Assembly: GCF_023499215.1 (NCBI RefSeq)
Contig: NZ_JAKHSK010000031.1
Location: 1-57,030, forward strand
Origin: Zunongwangia pacifica
Lineage (GTDB): Bacteria > Bacteroidota > Bacteroidia > Flavobacteriales > Flavobacteriaceae
Direction of reading: 5' to 3'
Length of the DNA stretch: 57,030 bases
This document shows positions 3,894 to 57,030 of this stretch, in pieces. The translations under genes were made by a program, and so were the position numbers. The first letter of the stretch is position 1. Every line of letters begins with the position of its first letter. The notes under the pieces were generated by a model. It worked only from the letters and a program-made list of their open reading frames with translations. It ran no database searches and had not been told where the DNA came from.

Positions 3894-3930
3894 CTAAACC
3901 TCACAGGTTTTCAAAACCTGTGAGGTTTAG
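3894..3930. repeat. REP-like palindrome, copy 1
   Basis: A perfect palindrome with 18-bp arms around a single C at 3912; the left arm is CTAAACCTCACAGGTTTT. It has the longest arms of the five copies in the window. It lies between divergent genes at 3801 and 4172. The next 240 bases hold AGCT-rich decayed repeat sequence and the small palindrome CTCGAT-A-ATCGAG at 4071-4083. Confidence 0.85.
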
Positions 3931-9292: not shown

Positions 9293-9325
9293 AAACCTCA
9301 CAGGTTTTCGAAACCTGTGAGGTTT
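9293..9325. repeat. REP-like palindrome, copy 2
   Basis: Left arm AAACCTCACAGGTTT (9293-9307), loop TCG, right arm 9311-9325, fully complementary. Just upstream, 9271-9282 is another small palindrome (TTAAGTACTTAA). Confidence 0.85.
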
Positions 9326-48804: not shown

Positions 48805-50211
48805 TTTCTTCGGAAAGAAAACCTCTATAACTGCAAAGCCAATCACCACAATATATTCTAGAGTGACAAGCCATAAATTCTCCTGAAATTCTACATTTCC
48901 GTAAGCATAATAACTCAAAATAGCTACAAAAGACCAAACGATAGGGAATCGATAGTTGGTGAATACGGAGAGTAATAATAGAGTTGCAATATACCATGGA
49001 TGCACGGTAGTAGAAAACAAAAAGTAAAAGAAAAGCGCAAAAACGCACCCCGAAATTAGCGATTTTAAGCTACTCTTTTTTCTAAAAAGGCTTATCACAA
49101 GGATAATAATAAAAGTGATTACAGGAAGGATGCTACCGGCATCGGCAATGATGTTATACCCTTTAATTTGAAAGCCAATCCACCTTACGATGTAATAAAT
49201 ACTAGCGTTGAATTCGAATTTCTGAAACCAAAGTCCTACACTTTCAGAAAAATTAGTCAGAAATGCTGAATTATAGAAGGGTAGAAAGCTTAAAATAACT
49301 GTGATTAATACGATAGCGTAAAAGCTTAAAAGCTTTACCCATTTTATGGATTTTAAGTCGGATATGTTTGCTGAAATTTGATTGGTAAAACTTCGATTTT
49401 CGATAATTTCTGAAGTATTTTTTTTAATGCTGAAAAACTTTAGGAAAAGTGGTAGGAACATCAATGGCAGCAATTTTACCGAAACCGATATTCCTAAAAC
49501 GATAGCTGAAATGATCCATTTTCGTTTCCATAACAAGTAAAAACTTAGCAGAATAAAAAAGCCCATCACACTTTCAAAATGTAGGTTTCCGGTGCATTCA
49601 ATGATCACAAAAGGATTCAGTAAAAACCAGAAAATATAATATTGCGGTAAATTGAGATGTTTTAAAAGTTTTCTTCCGAAGAAAAGAATTCCGATTTCCG
49701 CTAAAAGAATAAAAACCCGAAAAATAATCACCGAAAAAAGAATACTGTTTTTTGAAATTAGTCCTGCAACAGCAAAGATCAACTGATTTATGGGCGGATA
49801 ATTCGTATAATTTGAAGCACTTAAAGCACCCATACCTTTTACCAGTTCCTGAGCCTGAGAAATGCTGCCAAAATGAGCCGATTCCATTAAAAGATTGGGC
49901 GTGGATAAATAGGGATTAATCCCATCAGCGAGTAATCGACCATCCCAAATAAACCGGTAAAAATCCTGCGAGAGATTGGGTAGTGCTAGGATAAAAATTA
50001 ACCTAAAAATCAATGCTGCACCTGCCAATAGCCAAAATCGTGTTTTTAAAAGCTGAATAAGTTTAAAGCTCAGAAAAAACAATCCGGCATAAAGCGTTAT
50101 TAGTTTCGGAAAATCCGTTCGGTCAAGATCGTAAGCAAAGCTCCAGTAAAAAGCAGCCGCCGTTAAACATAAAAGCAACGGAATTTTATAGAATTTCAGG
50201 AATTGTAGCAA
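48781..50211 (-). CDS. Polytopic GT-C type mannosyltransferase-like protein
   Basis: A 476-residue protein with 11 or so hydrophobic helices and a conserved first large loop: NLSQDFYRFIWDGRLLADGINPYL (about 85-108), with the acidic residue in DFYRF. This matches the GT87/DUF2029-like group of polyprenyl-phosphate-sugar dependent transferases that act on the periplasmic face. Together with the DPM1-like GT2 at 53148 it could use a lipid-linked mannose or glucose. The acceptor is unknown. Converges with the LAB_N gene. Confidence 0.85.
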   Translation of the reverse strand: MLQFLKFYKIPLLLCLTAAAFYWSFAYDLDRTDFPKLITLYAGLFFLSFKLIQLLKTRFWLLAGAALIFRLIFILALPNLSQDFYRFIWDGRLLADGINPYLSTPNLLMESAHFGSISQAQELVKGMGALSASNYTNYPPINQLIFAVAGLISKNSILFSVIIFRVFILLAEIGILFFGRKLLKHLNLPQYYIFWFLLNPFVIIECTGNLHFESVMGFFILLSFYLLWKRKWIISAIVLGISVSVKLLPLMFLPLFLKFFSIKKNTSEIIENRSFTNQISANISDLKSIKWVKLLSFYAIVLITVILSFLPFYNSAFLTNFSESVGLWFQKFEFNASIYYIVRWIGFQIKGYNIIADAGSILPVITFIIILVISLFRKKSSLKSLISGCVFALFFYFLFSTTVHPWYIATLLLLSVFTNYRFPIVWSFVAILSYYAYGNVEFQENLWLVTLEYIVVIGFAVIEVFFPKKLSFSLFS

Positions 50212-50613
50212 TTTTACTAGAAGTTAGAATTACGAAATACGAATGTAGTTAAAAATATGTTTTAAGAATGAGAACGTTTCGCTACTACATTCTGGAACAG
50301 AAACAAGAAACAGGAAAAAAGAACCAAAAAAGTCCATCCTCTCAACACCACCTCGCCGTCCATTTGAAGAAGAGAGCTTTATTAAGGAATGATCTCGTTA
50401 TGAAAACTACCTGAATTCATCTGGGGGTCTCTTTTAAGTTTTGAATAAAACATGTTCTTTAAGTATTACTACTACACAAAAAATAATAGTTTTGTATTTC
50501 CCGAAACTCTACGACTAAGATTGATACTGTAAGAATTACTGTTTATATAGTAAACCCTTTTAAGGCTATATTTATAATAGTTCGTTAATAGTAACAATAA
50601 AATTTAACCTATT
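50212..50613. other. Intergenic region without recognised feature
   Basis: About 400 bases between divergent genes. TAGTTTTG at 50487-50494 could be a -7 box for the gene at 50614 but lacks a matching -33. No repeat or RNA gene was seen. Confidence 0.35.
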
Positions 50614-51096
50614 TTGAATTTAAGAAATCACCTGTCAATTTTCGTAATTATCCTCGTCTCACTTTTTATTTTCTCCTGTAACGATGATGATCCTGAAAAT
50701 TGCTGTAATGTAGATATAGGATTTGAGTTAGAAATTTTAGATGCTGATAATAATGATTTATTAGATCCGGATTTTTCAGATAGCTATGATCATTCAGAAA
50801 TTAGCTATTATAAACTTGATGAGAATGATAAGAAAATCGAACTTATTTTAGAAAATCAGTTTATTAATCCGCCTTCAAACGAATCTGGCAGATATTTTTT
50901 ATACATCGCAGGACTTGGTACCAGGCAGTCTGACGGGAGTTATATTTCTTATCTAAAATTATCGAATACCGTGACCGACACGATAAAAATAATAACTAAT
51001 GAAAATGATAATAACCTGCTAAATGAAAAAATCTGGTATAATGGTGATTTAATATGGGAAACATCTGATCCTCGCTTAATTACTATTTCTAAATAG
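50614..51096 (+). CDS. Acidic lipoprotein, function unknown
   Basis: A 160-residue lipoprotein. The signal MNLRNHLSIFVIILVSLFIFSC places the lipid Cys at 22, followed by NDDDPENCC, a run of acidic residues that in Bacteroidota can act as a surface-export signal. The start is TTG; no ATG lies nearby in frame before the signal. The mature part is beta-rich (ISYYKLDENDKKIELIL, GRYFLYIAGLGTRQSDG). I do not recognise a family. A MITE-like element begins 26 bases after the stop. Confidence 0.75.
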   Translation: MNLRNHLSIFVIILVSLFIFSCNDDDPENCCNVDIGFELEILDADNNDLLDPDFSDSYDHSEISYYKLDENDKKIELILENQFINPPSNESGRYFLYIAGLGTRQSDGSYISYLKLSNTVTDTIKIITNENDNNLLNEKIWYNGDLIWETSDPRLITISK

Positions 51097-51122
51097 CTTG
51101 TAAAACTCAAAATAAGAAGTAT

Positions 51123-51267
51123 GAGGCTGTCTAAAAACTCAATTTTAGTCAACCTGTTCCGATAGCTATCGGAATTGTTTTAGGTTCTCATAAAGATTTT
51201 TAAATCAATGAGATGAGATTCTGAAACAAGTTCAGAATGACGTTTTTGGATGTTTTTAGACAGCCTC
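51123..51267. mobile_element. MITE-like element, copy 2
   Basis: 145 bp with terminal inverted repeats GAGGCTGTCTAAAAA / TTTTTAGACAGCCTC, in the opposite orientation to the copy at 12471. The central 18-bp palindrome TTCCGATAGCTATCGGAA (51157-51174) is perfect here but has changes in the other copy. TAT flanks both ends (51120-51122 and 51268-51270), a possible short target duplication, not seen at the other copy. Confidence 0.75.
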
Positions 51268-51330
51268 TATTTATTTAAGATTAAACAATAGACTCAAATT
51301 TTCTCGTCTATTATTTTAAATTTGGAAGAG

Positions 51331-51580
51331 ATTTCTCCATTCCGCTGCGTTCCAGCCGATATTTTGTTACCAATAGAAGCTTGCGTCATCTCGACCCTGC
51401 CTCGCCGGCAGGCAGGCAGGCAGAGCGGAGAGATCTCTTTTTGGAAATTTTGTTTTGGATAAGATTTCTCCATTCCGCTGCGCTCCAGTCGAAATGACGA
51501 ATTTATTTTATTCTTAAAATAAAGATTCTGTTGTCCTCAACCCTACCTTGCCGGTAGGCAGGCGAAACGTAGAGGTCCTA
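51331..51580. repeat. Cluster of flavobacterial intergenic repeats
   Basis: Two copies of ATTTCTCCATTCCGCTGCG (51331 and 51465), each followed by CCAG(T/C)CGA, and two GC-rich copies of a TCGACCCTGCCTCGCCGGCAG-type unit (about 51391-51435 and 51536-51578). In the first of these GGCA is repeated four times (51407-51422). The same families occur near 150, 9165 and 12400. There is no gene between 51268 and 51661. Confidence 0.65.
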
Positions 51581-51661
51581 CTATAAGACGGTGTCATTCC
51601 AATCATTTGTCTCTTATCTCTCGTCTCAATTCTAACTACTAAAAGCGAAGCGGTCTAAAAT

Positions 51662-53134
51662 CTAACTTTTTGAAAAAATACTCTTAAAAGCCACAAAACC
51701 AAATCCGCCAAAAAGCATAAGGTGGAAAACAATTAATCCGAAATCATTTAGCACAAAAGCGCTATACAACGCAAAGGCAAAATAGAGGCAAAGTAAAGCT
51801 TCGATAAGAATGTTTGCTGAAAATTTATCGGAGAGGTATTTATTCCCTTTCCAGGAATCTTTAAGCGTATTCACGTTGAATTTTGGAGTACGAATAAACT
51901 CTGATTTTTTACCAAAATGACCTTCTAAAACCGCCAGTGAATTATGTACAGAAAATCCCATTGCCACCGCAAAAAAGGTGATAAACATCCCGATAAAACT
52001 AAAAAAAGATTTGACGCTTTTTCCGTAGATTTTGGTGTAGGGTACATAATAACAGAAAAAGAAAATGATCGTGCTAATGCCGAAACCGGCAAGCACATTA
52101 AAATACCAGCTAAACGCAGGATTATTATTTTTAATATAGAGTACGGGAACGCTTAAAACCGCAAGTAGTAAAACGATTAAAAACATGCTTGAATTTAGCA
52201 AATGAAAAAATCCGTGAAACTTTGTACCAAAAGAAACACTGGGATCTTTAACCAATCTTAGATAATTTTTCCTGAAATTTTCAGCAGCGCCTTTGTTCCA
52301 TCGGAATTGCTGTGAGCGTGCCGCACTGATCACTACCGGAAGTTCAGCCGGAGTTTCAACATCTTCCAGGTATTTGAATTTCCATTTTTTAAGCTGTGCG
52401 CGATAACTTAGATCTAAATCTTCGGTAAGTGTGTCACCGCTCCAATTCCCGGCATCTAGGATACATTCCTTGCGCCAGATTCCAGCTGTTCCATTAAAAT
52501 TGATAAAATGCCGACCAAAATTTCTGCCGGTTTGTTCTAGTATGAAATGAAAATCTAAAGCAAAAGCCTGGATTTTTGTAAGTAGCGAATAATCCCGATT
52601 TAGATGGGCCCAGCGAGTTTGCACCACGCCAATTTCATGATCCTTAAAATAAGGAACCGTGTTTTTAAGCCAATCTGGATTCGGCATAAAATCGGAATCA
52701 AAAATCGCGATAAACTCACCTTTTGCGATTTTTAATCCTTCTTTTAGCGCCCCGGCTTTAAATCCGCTTCGCTTTTTACGTTGTATATGCTGAATATCAA
52801 TTCCGTTTTCCCGAATTTCAGAAATAATTTCAGTGGTTTTTAAAACCGATTCGTCGGTAGAATCATCGAGCACCTGGATTTCAAGTTTGTCTTTCGGATA
52901 ATCCATCTTAGCGATATTCCGCAGTAATCTTTCCACTACATACATTTCGTTGTAAAGCGGCAACTGGATGGTCACTTTAGGGATTTCAGCAGGATTATTT
53001 AGATCGAATTTTTCAGCAGTATCGACACTTTTCTTCGCTTTTAAGTAGTTCAGCAATAATTGTAATTCTGAAATACTGTAAAAGAAGATCACCAGCAAAG
53101 CCAGTGTATATATTATGATAACCGCTAAATCCAA
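51662..53134 (-). CDS. Processive-type GT2 glycosyltransferase (cellulose synthase-like)
   Basis: A 490-residue membrane GT2. After one N-terminal helix come VTIQLPLYNEMYVVERLL, VLDDSTDES, FDSDFMPNPDWL (DxD), LTEDLDLSYRAQLKKW (TED, the general base) and QQFRWNKGAAEN (QxxRW). Four or more helices follow (about 310-460). All motifs of the processive cellulose-synthase superfamily are present, as in glucomannan or other beta-glycan synthases. The product is unknown. It lies 13 bases after the DPM1-like gene on the same strand, so the two are likely one operon. Confidence 0.92.
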   Translation of the reverse strand: MDLAVIIIYTLALLVIFFYSISELQLLLNYLKAKKSVDTAEKFDLNNPAEIPKVTIQLPLYNEMYVVERLLRNIAKMDYPKDKLEIQVLDDSTDESVLKTTEIISEIRENGIDIQHIQRKKRSGFKAGALKEGLKIAKGEFIAIFDSDFMPNPDWLKNTVPYFKDHEIGVVQTRWAHLNRDYSLLTKIQAFALDFHFILEQTGRNFGRHFINFNGTAGIWRKECILDAGNWSGDTLTEDLDLSYRAQLKKWKFKYLEDVETPAELPVVISAARSQQFRWNKGAAENFRKNYLRLVKDPSVSFGTKFHGFFHLLNSSMFLIVLLLAVLSVPVLYIKNNNPAFSWYFNVLAGFGISTIIFFFCYYVPYTKIYGKSVKSFFSFIGMFITFFAVAMGFSVHNSLAVLEGHFGKKSEFIRTPKFNVNTLKDSWKGNKYLSDKFSANILIEALLCLYFAFALYSAFVLNDFGLIVFHLMLFGGFGFVAFKSIFSKS

Positions 53135-53147
53135 TCTATTTTTTAAT

Positions 53148-53846
53148 CTATTTAAAGCTATATTTAAAAATCCAGCCCAAAATCTTTACGCCTGCAAAGA
53201 TAGCGCCTTTTAGCGTTCCAGAAACTTTAGAGATGCCAATCCTGTTTTTGTAATGCACCGGCACTTCTACATACATAAAATCATGCTTTATGGCTTTAAG
53301 TTGCATTTCTACCGTCCAGCCATAGGTTTTATCTTCCATATTTAGCTGAAGCAGTTTCTCGTATTTTATCGCTCTAAAAGGACCAAGATCGGTAAATTTT
53401 GCGCCGAAAAATAAGTGCATTAAAGTGGTGGCTAGCCAGTTTCCGAAGATCTGCGGAAGCGTCATCGAGCCCTCTTCCCGCCATTTTTTTACCCGTGAAC
53501 CAATTACCATATCAATATTTTTTTGCTGAATTGGCGCAATAATTTTGGTTAATTCTGAAGGATAATCGCTGTAATCGCCATCCAGAAATACAATGATTTC
53601 AGGTTTTTGAGATTGTTTGGCGATATGGTCCATTCCTTTTAAACAGGCGTAACCATAACCTTTTCGGTTTTCCTGAAGAACGGTCGCACCGGCAGCTGAA
53701 GCATTTTTCTCGGTATCATCAGTCGAATTGTTACTTACCACAATTACTTCATCGACGATATTGGGGATTTCAGCAATAACTTTTGCAATCGAATCTGCTT
53801 CGTTATACGCAGGGATAATAACTTTTATGATGGAGTTTTTCTTCAA
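53148..53846 (-). CDS. GT2 polyprenyl-phosphate sugar transferase, DPM1/UgtP-like
   Basis: A 232-residue GT2: VIIPAYNEADSIAKVI, VVSNNSTDDTE, FLDGDYSDYPSEL (DxD), a GSRVKKWREEGSM loop and the C-terminal VPVHYKNRIGISKVSGT. This is the dolichol-phosphate-mannose-synthase-like group, which loads a sugar from a nucleotide onto a polyprenyl phosphate or other lipid. There are no DPM-type transmembrane helices beyond a short C-terminal hydrophobic end. The order on the transcript is cyclase, palindrome, this gene, then the processive GT2. Confidence 0.9.
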   Translation of the reverse strand: MKKNSIIKVIIPAYNEADSIAKVIAEIPNIVDEVIVVSNNSTDDTEKNASAAGATVLQENRKGYGYACLKGMDHIAKQSQKPEIIVFLDGDYSDYPSELTKIIAPIQQKNIDMVIGSRVKKWREEGSMTLPQIFGNWLATTLMHLFFGAKFTDLGPFRAIKYEKLLQLNMEDKTYGWTVEMQLKAIKHDFMYVEVPVHYKNRIGISKVSGTLKGAIFAGVKILGWIFKYSFK

Positions 53847-53883
53847 GTCTTTTGGGTATAAACAGTATTTCCAGATCTTGCTT

Positions 53884-53918
53884 TAGACCTCACAGGTTTC
53901 TAAAACCTGTGAGGTCTA
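53884..53918. repeat. REP-like palindrome, copy 3
   Basis: Arms TAGACCTCACAGGTTT (53884-53899) and its complement (53903-53918), loop CTA. It belongs to the G/C variant: the arm reads GACCTC where copies 1, 2 and 5 read AACCTC, and the other arm changes with it. It lies between two minus-strand genes. Confidence 0.85.
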
Positions 53919-53927
53919 GGCTGTCGT

Positions 53928-54617
53928 CTATTCAAAAATCGCAACGGCTCTAACGGTAGAACCGGTGCCACCGCGAATTTTCAAAGGTAGGGCGATAAAT
54001 CTGAAACGCCCACGTCCCACCAGTTTATCCAGGTTGATCATATTTTCGTAATGCGTAAAAGATAACTCGCCACAAATATGATGAACCTCTTTGTTGGAAA
54101 TTCCAGGTACGCCGGGCGACATGGTTTCTACACCAAAAGCTGCGATTTCCTGTTCGCCAAGCCAGCGAGCAGCTTCTGCTGAAATTCCCGGGCCATTTGG
54201 CCAATTTTCAGTATTAAAATGTTTTTGATAATGATTGGTGCAAAGCAATAAGGTGTCGCCTTTCTTTAGGTCGAGATTCGATAATTTTAGCTGCTTTTTT
54301 ATTTCTTCTGAAGTAATGATCTCTTTTAATCCTTTTGCTGAAAAGTCCAGACAAATCCCTTCAGTATAAGAAGTAGACAAAGGCATGGTGTCGATCGATT
54401 TTCCTTTATCTTCTTTACGCATATGGTTTAGTGCGTCGACATGCGTGCCGGTGTGTTCACTCATTTTAAGCGAATAAACACTGGGAGTTGGGTTTTCAGG
54501 ATTTTTGATGCCTTCCCATTCTTCGTGCGATGCATGCATTTTTATGCTTACCTGTGGCAAAACTTTGTAAACCGGCATGGCATCGTAAATCTCCTGACTA
54601 AGATCGATGATTTCCAT
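53928..54617 (-). CDS. Cyclase family protein (kynurenine formamidase-like)
   Basis: A 229-residue metal-dependent cyclase-family hydrolase with the complete motif HTGTHVDALNHM (about 57-68), as in kynurenine formamidase (HxGTHxDxxxH). GPGISAEAARWLGEQEIAAFGVETMSPGVPG and the final FIALPLKIRGGTGSTVRAVAIFE are typical for the group annotated as kynurenine formamidase-like. Its ATG overlaps the stop of the upstream ferredoxin-like gene by one base (TAATG), so it is coupled to that gene; there are no tryptophan-pathway genes near. Substrate unknown. Confidence 0.9.
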   Translation of the reverse strand: MEIIDLSQEIYDAMPVYKVLPQVSIKMHASHEEWEGIKNPENPTPSVYSLKMSEHTGTHVDALNHMRKEDKGKSIDTMPLSTSYTEGICLDFSAKGLKEIITSEEIKKQLKLSNLDLKKGDTLLLCTNHYQKHFNTENWPNGPGISAEAARWLGEQEIAAFGVETMSPGVPGISNKEVHHICGELSFTHYENMINLDKLVGRGRFRFIALPLKIRGGTGSTVRAVAIFE

Positions 54618-56200
54618 TAGTTGCTTTTCTGATTTAGAAGATCCAGTAGATCTACGTCGTTCCCAAGTAAAACCTCATTTTCGTTGATTCTGCCTTCCGT
54701 TTTTCCGTTTTCTAATTTTAAAACTCCACGAGGGCAAACCGCTGAACAGATTCCGCAGCCCACACAACTGGAGCGAACAATATTTTGTCCTTTTTGAGCA
54801 TAAGCTCTAACATCGATTCCCATTTCGCAGTACGCCGAGCAATTTCCGCAGCTAATGCATTGTCCTCCATTAGTAGTAATTCTAAATTTTGAAAATAACT
54901 TTTGCTGCATTCCAAGAATTGCCGCCATAGGGCAACCGTAACGACACCACACGCGACTTCCAAAAATCGGGTAAAAACCAACACCAATTACTCCAGAGAA
55001 CGCCGCGCCAATTAAAAAGCCGTACCATTCGCGGAGTTTATATGCCGGGAAGAAAAAGATATTCCAGTTTCCACTGAAATAATTAATCCCAATAATCGCT
55101 AATATCACCACTAAATAACCTATGGCTCCGTACTTTGCATCTTTTTGTAATTGATCTCTTTTAAAAATCATGATGAGCGAAAAAAATAGCGTAAGGAAAC
55201 CGGCACTTCCCCAAAGAAAAATATCTTTAGTTAGCCAAAATCGATCGGCATTTTCACCAAGATACGAATAGACTACCGCGATGGTCATCACGGTAACAAA
55301 AACTAATACACTATGAATTACCCAGCGTTCGATCTTCCAGGCTTTTTGAGATTTATCAGAAAGTTGTCTAAAAGGATCACCGGCAGTTTCGGCGAGACCG
55401 CCACAACCACAAACCCAGCTACAATACCAGCGTTTTCCGTATTTGTAGGTGAGAATAGGGGTGATCACGAAGATCGAAACAATACCAAAAATAAGCATGG
55501 CAACACCTAAATTTCCGGCAGATAAAAATGAATCTAAGCGATATCCCGCAAAAAGATCATAATTCAGCGGCCAGATCGTTGTCGGTGCAAAATAAGGTTG
55601 GTTAAGTCGCGCAAGAATTTCAGGAATTAAAAACGCAAAACCTAACTGAAAAAACATCACCGAACAGGTTCTAATGATCTCGTAGCGATTATGGCGATAT
55701 TTCAGGATAAATTTGAACCCGAATATCCAGATCGCAACCGTGTATAACGTTCCGTAAACGAACCATTGGCTGGCCGGGCCACCATTTATAAATTTGCTCA
55801 GGGGATCGAACAAGGCAATGATTCCGCTATTTGTACCTTCGCTATGTAATCCCAAATAATGCGGAAACCAATACAACACCATGTAAAAAAGCGTAAGTCC
55901 AATCCCAAGAATCCAGGCCCAAAATCCTTTACCGCTTAGGGATTTAAACCAAACGCCGTCGTTTTTAATTCCTGCATGTTTTTCCCAATAGGCATCTACA
56001 GAGAAAATAACCGTTCCCAGAGTGATCATTCCTAAAGATAAAGTCAGAAATAAGCTTTTATTCGGGAAATTGAAATTTGCGATCGCAAGAACCAAAATCA
56101 ATAAACCTGTAAGGCCAATGGCACTTGCTATTTTTTGAGTCGTAGAAATGCTTTTTGGAGCATCCCCAGTGATAGACATATTATGTTCGATGTTGTTCAT
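54617..56200 (-). CDS. Polytopic 4Fe-4S membrane protein (NapH/MauN-like)
   Basis: A 527-residue inner-membrane protein. About ten helices (from about residue 26) enclose CSWVCGCGGLAETAGDP and CRYGCPMAAILGMQQKL motifs, as in NapH/MauN/CcoG-like proteins. The cytoplasmic C-terminus has two ferredoxin clusters: CISCGNCSAYCEMG and CVGCGICSAVCPRG (about 445-490). Such proteins pass electrons between quinol and periplasmic or cytoplasmic partners. No reductase for it is in view. It is coupled by a one-base overlap with the cyclase gene downstream. Confidence 0.9.
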   Translation of the reverse strand: MNNIEHNMSITGDAPKSISTTQKIASAIGLTGLLILVLAIANFNFPNKSLFLTLSLGMITLGTVIFSVDAYWEKHAGIKNDGVWFKSLSGKGFWAWILGIGLTLFYMVLYWFPHYLGLHSEGTNSGIIALFDPLSKFINGGPASQWFVYGTLYTVAIWIFGFKFILKYRHNRYEIIRTCSVMFFQLGFAFLIPEILARLNQPYFAPTTIWPLNYDLFAGYRLDSFLSAGNLGVAMLIFGIVSIFVITPILTYKYGKRWYCSWVCGCGGLAETAGDPFRQLSDKSQKAWKIERWVIHSVLVFVTVMTIAVVYSYLGENADRFWLTKDIFLWGSAGFLTLFFSLIMIFKRDQLQKDAKYGAIGYLVVILAIIGINYFSGNWNIFFFPAYKLREWYGFLIGAAFSGVIGVGFYPIFGSRVWCRYGCPMAAILGMQQKLFSKFRITTNGGQCISCGNCSAYCEMGIDVRAYAQKGQNIVRSSCVGCGICSAVCPRGVLKLENGKTEGRINENEVLLGNDVDLLDLLNQKSN

Positions 56201-56212
56201 TTTATATTATTT

Positions 56213-56245
56213 AGACCTCACAGGTTTTTAAAACCTGTGAGGTCT
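56213..56245. repeat. REP-like palindrome, copy 4 (3' side of the RAYT gene)
   Basis: Arms AGACCTCACAGGTTTT (56213-56228) and its complement (56230-56245) around one T. It lies 6 bases beyond the transposase stop and 12 bases before the ferredoxin-like start. Confidence 0.9.
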
Positions 56246-56251
56246 TGAGTT

Positions 56252-56818
56252 TTATTCTAAATATAATTCACTCTTTTTCTCAAAGATTTCCTGCTGTCGT
56301 TTGTAATGCATAAACCTGAAATTGGATATATCATCAAAAAGTTCTAGAACATCATCTCTTTTTAAAAGAGTTTTTGCTGTAGACATCATTGCAATAAACG
56401 AGGAGTATTTATAATTTTCAAAATTTGTGGTAAATCCATGATGTGATGGATTTAGATGAATATATAAAATTAGTTGTTTTAGGTATTCGTCATTTTTTAT
56501 TTGAATTCTTGAAAACCTATCTTGAAAGAGACTTCCATTTCTATCGTAGGCTTTATTTATAGCTTTAGCATAGGCATTAAATAAATTTGAAAAGCTTTTA
56601 GAAAGAATCTTATTTTCAAAGTTTAGAGTTTTAATTAATAAATGAAAATGATTTTTTAATAAGCAGTATGCATGAATTTCTGCGATTGGTAAAATATATT
56701 TTTGAATCAATGAAAGAAAAAATGTGTAATTTCTATCTTCAATAAAAATGTTTTCACCATTGTTACCCCTATTGTAAATATGGTAGAATTTATTGGCTTG
56801 TAATGGCTCATATTTCAT
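56252..56818 (-). CDS. REP-associated tyrosine transposase (RAYT; Y1_Tnp, IS200-like HUH domain)
   Basis: A 188-residue HUH endonuclease of the Y1 transposase family. The ATG at 56818 is preferred; an in-frame ATG at 56845 lies inside the right palindrome. Family features: FYHIYNRGNNGENIF (11-25), the HUH motif HFH (57-59) within LLKNHFHLLIK, GSLFQDRFSRI (95-105) and DEYLKQLILYIHLNP (110-124), where Y119, or else Y112, is the candidate nucleophile. RAYTs are single-copy domesticated transposases that act on REP palindromes. Both ends of the gene carry copies of the same palindrome, 6 and 18 bases away. No IS200 left or right ends or TnpB are present. Confidence 0.9.
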   Translation of the reverse strand: MKYEPLQANKFYHIYNRGNNGENIFIEDRNYTFFLSLIQKYILPIAEIHAYCLLKNHFHLLIKTLNFENKILSKSFSNLFNAYAKAINKAYDRNGSLFQDRFSRIQIKNDEYLKQLILYIHLNPSHHGFTTNFENYKYSSFIAMMSTAKTLLKRDDVLELFDDISNFRFMHYKRQQEIFEKKSELYLE

Positions 56819-56836
56819 TTTTATCGGTGTTTTTTT

Positions 56837-56869
56837 AAACCTCACAGGTTTCTTAAACCTGTGAGGTTT
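56837..56869. repeat. REP-like palindrome, copy 5 (5' side of the RAYT gene)
   Basis: Arms AAACCTCACAGGTTT (56837-56851) and its complement (56855-56869), loop CTT. It lies 18 bases before the RAYT start. Confidence 0.9.
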
Positions 56870-56925
56870 GGTTTGCCGTATAGTCTTAATATTGCTTTTT
56901 TAAACCTGATTTTGATTATCCGCAA

Positions 56926-57030
56926 TTAGTCATAACCTGTAATTCCTGCTATAACGAGCCTATCGAAGAGTTTTTCTCCGAAATATCTTCTGTTGAGTTT
57001 GTAGATAAATTCATTCAGGTATAACTGTAG
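56926..57030 (-). mobile_element. C-terminal end of a transposase, probably IS1595 family (cut by the window edge)
   Basis: The minus strand reads 34 codons into a TAA at 56926-56928: the end includes YLNEFIYKLNRRYFG and EKLFDRLVIAGITGYD. The pattern NEF-x-Y-K-x-NRR-x-F-G followed by FDRL is what I expect at the end of IS1595 (ISXO2-like) transposases. Only the last 34 residues are visible; the rest lies beyond 57030. No terminal repeat was identified in 56870-56925. Confidence 0.6.

Follow-up and report, generated by a model that had tools for sequence, protein, structure and literature searches.

The gene at 56252..56818 on the minus strand and the palindromes around it probably form a RAYT-REP pair of a Bacteroidota type, in which a 33-nt palindrome is the most likely substrate. 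They lie in a 57,030-nt stretch of Zunongwangia pacifica DNA, the whole of which we call the window and for which an earlier note had proposed a Bacteroidota RAYT-REP system. This proposal is supported by the match of the predicted fold to 4er8, by a family of cognate palindromes and by an association of palindrome and gene that extends across the family. We also put forward, tentatively, that the 33-nt ends occur as solo elements read by a 3-nt loop code co-evolving with the enzyme, and that a sister branch has turned the downstream bracket into the in-frame linker of a RAYT-HemF protein.

A RAYT-like protein between two perfect palindromes

In the ORF listing of the window, the gene encodes 188 aa from an ATG, or 197 aa if a GTG start is used. 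The protein contains NHFH (residues 56-59) and a catalytic-type Tyr119 within YIHLNP, and both NHFH and Tyr119 are invariant in nine aligned sequences, the window protein included. The NCBIfam model NF047646 (REP_Tyr_transpos) matched it with E 5e-16 and 58.8 bits, below the cutoff of 80, and PF01797 (Y1_Tnp) with E 3e-4 and 21.2 bits, below the cutoff of 23; the Pfam search returned no HTH match. The top Foldseek match of the predicted model (pLDDT 91.5) was the E. coli TnpAREP with a REP hairpin (4er8; E 1.8e-8, TM 0.65/0.73), followed by IS200/IS605-type transposases, and 4er8 was also the sole match in a PDB sequence search up to E 10 (E 0.006). An HUH motif, a single catalytic Tyr in Y---NP and, by prediction, the Y1 fold are all present. 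With both scores below their cutoffs, the window protein is a divergent relative within RAYT/TnpAREP, which we filed as RAYT-like because of its fold, motifs and flanks and not by the score of a curated family. No other RAYT was found in the window genome (G000); its further Y1 gene, on contig C30, matches as a plain Y1_Tnp (133 bits).

Both of the bracketing palindromes described in the earlier note were located. One of 33 bp (16+1+16, AG..CT type; 56213..56245) begins 6 bp past the RAYT stop codon, and the other, also of 33 bp (15+3+15, AA..TT type; 56837..56869), lies 18 bp before the start. The host gene adjoining the unit, 54617..56200 on the minus strand, encodes a 4Fe-4S protein, which we take to resemble CcoG. 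The three further intergenic window places reported to carry the same palindrome do so, with cores at 3898, 9295 and 53887. The first copy (3894..3930) has arms extended to 18 nt and lies between divergent genes; the second (9293..9325) is also found in the congener G004 and has a sister copy with homologous flanks on contig C15 (L001); the third (53884..53918) occurs in the congeners G003, which has no RAYT match, and G004 as well. With the ORF caller used, none of the five window palindromes falls inside an ORF, and on the far side of the one at 56839 there is no ORF up to the contig end. The copy at 53884..53918 adjoins a Cyclase-family gene (PF04199; 53928-54617), which is absent at that place in G003, where homology resumes just beyond the palindrome.

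Copies of the palindrome in the genome

Five copies of the core ACCTCACAGGTTT-NNN-AAACCTGTGAGGT lie in the window, and 100 shuffles yielded none. The genome scan that the earlier note had suggested gave 21 exact copies in 5.1 Mb and 26 at up to 3 mismatches, with none for the reversed control. Coincidence as the origin of the copies was discarded, given 21 copies against none in the shuffles and the reversed control. In two of the five mismatch copies (L023 and L024), the changes are paired between the arms. A simple ORF caller places 23 of the 26 copies between genes, four of these being next to a stretch end; the other three lie in two doubtful ORFs (95 and 96 aa) and, with 1 mismatch, in an ORF of 1244 aa. 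Neighbouring genes are co-directional at 11 copies, convergent at 4 and divergent at 4, which resembles the background. The two covarying sequence types that had been claimed are evident in the outer pairs of the exact copies, 14 being AA..TT and 7 AG..CT, and never mixed. GTAG, GTGG or their complements were absent within 12 nt of all 21 exact copies, and no Rfam match was obtained in 50000-57030 at gathering scores.

Five of the 21 copies are located inside a conserved intergenic repeat of ~110 nt (two at L002, one at L019 and two at L020). Since they share this longer repeat, they are not independent, and they probably spread together with it. Another intergenic repeat, of ~100 nt and beginning TTATTGGCACCGCC, adjoins the palindrome at L013 around 1530; the matches listed for it number at least ~35 each in G001 and G003, and at least 6 to 9 in G002, G004 and G005.

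Anatomy of the repeat

In many palindrome types the arm is itself an inverted repeat with a 3-nt loop, as in ACCT-CAC-AGGT. Among 24 sequence clusters, the stem around a loop of 3 has at least 3 bp in 16 and at least 4 bp in 9, and fewer than 3 bp in 8. The stem lengths sum to 75 over the clusters; shuffling gave a mean of 37, and the highest sums reached were 51 (2000 shuffles) and 53 (a second set of 300). An excess is also seen for loops of 1 and 5 with the same centre, but not for even loops. The variable core of the palindrome is the 3-nt loop of this small hairpin. Because each arm is an inverted repeat with a 3-nt loop, the perfect palindrome may plausibly be viewed as a pair of small REPs in inverted orientation, with hardly a gap between them, although the full 33-nt hairpin is thermodynamically preferred (-15.9 kcal/mol versus -1.6 to -3.1 kcal/mol for each small hairpin).

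Association of palindrome and RAYT across the family

We surveyed 299 genomes of the family, scoring RAYTs at E 1e-10. The exact palindrome is present in 24 genomes and a RAYT, patchily distributed, in 49; both are found in 18, the palindrome only in 6, the RAYT only in 31 and neither in 244 (p=2.4e-11). As genomes are not independent, we also tabulated the 236 genera, which corrects for this partly: 14 have both, 5 the palindrome only, 27 the RAYT only and 190 neither (p=1.7e-8). The more permissive skeleton ACCTNNNAGGTTT-NNN-AAACCTNNNAGGT has 444 copies across 67 genomes, and genomes with and without a RAYT number 35 and 32 among these versus 14 and 218 among the others (p=3e-16). At least five skeleton copies are found in 23 RAYT-positive and 4 RAYT-negative genomes, and one to four copies in 12 and 28, respectively.

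For the CAC and GTC types, copies away from the brackets are commoner where the bracket is of that type. CAC copies elsewhere occur in 9 of 10 genomes with a CAC-bracketed RAYT versus 8 of 39 other RAYT-positive genomes (p=1e-4), where the bracket variants of G055 and G006 were left out of the CAC-bracketed set and a copy of G211, 880 bp from its own RAYT, was scored as elsewhere. For GTC the numbers are 3 of 5 versus 6 of 44 (p=0.04), and for AAC, 1 of 2 versus 4 of 47 is not significant. Four palindrome-rich genomes have no RAYT at E 1e-10 (G213, G049, G007 and G116). The strongest exception to the association is G213, with 22 exact GTC-type palindromes. No RAYT remnants were detected in 11 palindrome loci of G213 and G001-G003, which are known to include four of the 22 copies of G213.

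The palindrome core follows the RAYT clade

RAYT genes of other genera are also bracketed, often by palindromes with other cores (AAC, GTC, GCA, GAC and others). A perfect palindrome was detected near the gene at 47 of 66 RAYT loci, on both sides at 23, and none was detected by this test at 19. Palindrome density is far higher near RAYTs, with 77 in 37 kb versus 22 in 209 kb farther away, and 44 of the 77 near-gene palindromes are exactly 33 nt long. Most named relatives come from Bacteroidetes MAGs. Of the 13 named MAG loci found, which include Bacteroidales, Chitinophagaceae, Chlorobiota and Ignavibacteriae, 12 were examined; in seven of them a 33-nt palindrome of quite another sequence stands beside the gene or within it. 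In L155 and L157 the RAYT frame itself contains a 33-nt palindrome, or 11 codons; it is found 263 nt after the start, between the HUH and Tyr motifs. Two RAYT copies with internal stop codons, L060 (G248) and L035 (G018), still keep their bracketing palindromes.

We assigned core labels by hand to 35 RAYTs and compared them with a RAYT tree of 53 rows, which does not include proteins of <150 aa, duplicate loci or the helicase fusion L094; L089, which has two bracket types, stayed unlabelled. All 11 CAC-labelled proteins fall into one clade together with three unlabelled ones (SH-aLRT 80), four AAC-labelled proteins and one unlabelled form another (80), and five GTC- and three GCA-labelled proteins all sit in a third (98). 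L083, whose bracket core ACCCACAGGGT is related to the CAC core, sits in the third clade, outside the CAC clade. The labels require 14 changes on the tree, compared with a minimum of 20 in 500 shuffles. The palindrome core follows the RAYT clade. Since palindrome and enzyme change together, it is very probable that they act as a pair. Seven genomes carry two RAYTs from different clades (G012, G041, G120, G138, G166, G203 and G211); G041 and G211 contain both CAC and GTC palindromes, and G138 and G203 have, of these two, CAC only.

We considered whether the palindromes could be double-stranded operators of a transcription regulator that stand beside RAYTs incidentally. The perfect dyad and the nested half symmetry would suit protein dimers. 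However, the sequence varies with the RAYT clade, unrelated letters bracket the gene in the named relatives, and no common gene context is evident in the ORF layout of the copies, so that we regard operators as very improbable. A second possibility is that the palindromes are bidirectional transcription terminators, two of which do no more than insulate the RAYT. T/A-rich flanks at 8 of the 21 exact copies agree with this idea, as do the L023 and L024 hairpins, which are kept at the same gene end in 6/6 genomes of the genus (see below). It is opposed by the 13 exact copies without a terminator-like flank, by the divergent genes that flank 4 of 26 copies, by the background-like orientation classes, by identical arms in 19 of 236 genera, by the tie of the core to the RAYT clade, and by the preference for 33 nt near RAYTs (44/77). 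We therefore judge terminators to be an improbable explanation of the palindromes as a whole.

RAYT-HemF fusions

All 12 long RAYT ORFs (488-535 aa) contain a complete C-terminal domain of coproporphyrinogen III oxidase (HemF). They come from 12 genomes (L054, L057, L058, L059, L073, L076-L080, L082 and L083), and their RAYT part was recognised by its similarity to the window protein, with Pfam Y1_Tnp matching in only 4 of the 12 at different E limits. In 11 of the 12, the expected bracket position is occupied by the junction peptide D-[LP]-x-[GD]-F-[EQK]-N-[LP]-x-[GD], for example DLSGFENLTG. In eight fusions the junction DNA forms a palindrome, perfect or nearly so, that is translated in frame 0, and the positions in L079, L080 and L083 point to the same frame; no palindrome-type linker was found in L059. 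Of the 12 HemF-fused genomes, 8 have GTC copies, versus 6 of 287 others (p=1e-9); part of this difference arises since the junction copy may be among those counted. We found no earlier report of a RAYT-HemF fusion in the literature searched. Rickettsia palindromic elements are short palindromes translated in frame inside proteins. The HemF fusions recall them, with the difference that the palindrome here goes with a RAYT and with a single fusion junction. In these proteins a repeat-processing enzyme is linked to a metabolic one through its own repeat. A different fusion, L094:1518-4595, joins a RAYT-like N-terminus to a PIF1/RecD-like helicase with HRDC and HTH_40 domains.

History of the unit within the genus

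Among six genomes of the genus, the bracketed RAYT is present at the same site in two, G000 and G004, and is missing together with its brackets from G001, G002, G003 and G005, which have one common empty arrangement. In G003, the gap between the upstream gene (oxidoreductase-like by eye) and the 4Fe-4S gene is 5 bp. Both brackets persist in G004, although the 3' one has decayed. In a tree of the neighbouring gene, for which G002 was chosen as the root, G000 joins G004 with moderate support (87/82); a single gain is therefore the simplest reading. From the common empty sites, we infer that the gene and both brackets were gained as one unit in the ancestor of G000 and G004. The window RAYT gene is thus not vertically old. 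Of the two traits that the earlier note listed for gamma-proteobacterial RAYTs, vertical retention does not hold here, as the gene is absent from 4 of 6 genomes at this site and RAYTs are patchy in the family (49/299); the single-copy state was confirmed, with one copy each in G000 and G004.

The gain of a unit at one defined site, together with the 5-bp gap in G003 and the IS200/IS605-type transposases as the next fold matches, is what an ordinary IS200/IS605-like insertion sequence might leave, and the solo palindromes would then be leftover ends. We consider this unlikely: the gene is single in G000 and in G004 instead of present in several moving copies, the same palindrome stands at both ends, NF047646 scores better than Y1_Tnp, and solo palindromes far outnumber the genes.

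The RAYT-REP reading also fits the copy numbers in the congeners, by which the earlier note had proposed to test it: the two RAYT-bearing genomes have 21 (G000) and 7 (G004) exact copies versus 2, 2 and 5 in G001, G002 and G003 without a RAYT match, six genomes being few. G005 has 3 copies. It was rejected as a RAYT-bearing congener; its match is only a C-terminal fragment resembling another RAYT type, and the 3.2-kb locus of this fragment contains no core-like arm. No RAYT matching the NF047646 model was found in G001-G003. Several of their palindromes are at sites common with G000, and the window gene copy is therefore not the maker of all of them. Some palindromes are older than the window RAYT gene; part of the palindrome family must therefore be accounted for by earlier RAYTs, transfer or retention for another role. 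No clean single-palindrome empty site was seen among four sites compared, two of them by one flank only; at L018:7896 the palindrome is missing in G004 alongside other indels. The copies at L023 and L024 (2 mismatches) retain the hairpin at the same gene end in 6/6 genomes with arms that have changed and still pair for the most part. These two hairpins look like terminators, and they may represent reuse of old palindrome copies or have an independent origin.

A candidate mechanism and its relation to known systems

On sequence and predicted fold, the window gene would encode an HUH single-strand nuclease of the TnpAREP family, most likely acting on the 33-nt palindrome as single-stranded DNA. 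The single strand could form one hairpin of 15 bp or, alternatively, a pair of small inverted hairpins (ACCT-CAC-AGGT and its complement), which would amount to a minimal REPIN. Recognition would depend mainly on the 3-nt loop of the small hairpin, since this loop varies with the RAYT clade. The enzyme would cut beside the hairpin and rejoin it elsewhere, mostly between genes, via Tyr119. The gene with both brackets would have entered its site as one unit in the ancestor of the two congeners, and some palindrome copies may later act as transcription terminators.

The 2018 survey (PMC6006769) calls the Bacteroidetes structures atypical and, in the text available, gives no further description of them. 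Our data offer a candidate substrate that has a preferred length and a variable core that can be read, along with 35 labelled natural RAYT-core pairs. The favoured length and the readable core, together with the seven two-RAYT genomes, make specificity directly testable by loop swaps. No relevant paper was found for the present palindrome sequences, and sequence-letter matches were unrelated. As far as we searched, the 33-nt rule, the nested half symmetry, the RAYT-core correspondence, the unit gain and the in-frame RAYT-palindrome-HemF fusions are new.

GTAG-less Bacteroidetes RAYTs with atypical flanks have been known since 2018. The survey assigns RAYT group 5, mostly from Bacteroidetes, to TnpAREP subclass 2.6, whose genes are flanked by atypical structures without GT[AG]G that have copies elsewhere in the genome (PMC6006769). 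The window system shares the GTAG-less flanking structures with copies elsewhere and the serine motif after the catalytic Tyr, and most of its named relatives are likewise from Bacteroidetes. However, subclass 2.6 is described with NH[LIV]H, WQ, YIH[QN]NP and a median HUH-Y distance of 82 (PMC6006769), whereas the window protein has NHFH, FQ, YIHLNP and 63 residues from HUH to Y; some of its relatives do show a longer distance. The 33-nt rule, the half symmetry and the RAYT-core code do not appear in the portions of the subclass 2.6 account available to us (PMC6006769). In its NHFH, FQ and YIHLNP, and in the inverted repeats beside the gene, the window protein resembles TIRYT/TIRtron subclass 2.1 (NH[YF]H, FQ, Y[IV]HLNP), which differs, in the parts of these accounts at hand, in having many TIRs with GGGGWSAS and proteins with a C-terminal HTH (PMC3733652, PMC6006769).

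The distinction from the classical systems drawn in the earlier note was upheld in part. The lack of GTAG/GTGG stood (0/21 copies), but it does not set this system apart, as GTAG-less Bacteroidetes RAYTs had been reported (PMC6006769); nor does perfection of the palindromes, because RAYT group 3 REPs, of which the loop bases are important, are described as perfect palindromes too (PMC8266576). As far as the available accounts of gammaproteobacterial TnpAREP/REPIN groups 2 and 3 go, the present system resembles them in the HUH/Y1 fold, the single-copy gene and the genome-wide flanking repeats (PMC8266576, PMC2817692). Unlike these groups, it has no GTAG/GTGG foot and ~20 exact copies instead of hundreds (PMC8266576, PMC2817692), and here the whole element is one perfect palindrome, the two strands of which are equal save at the centre.
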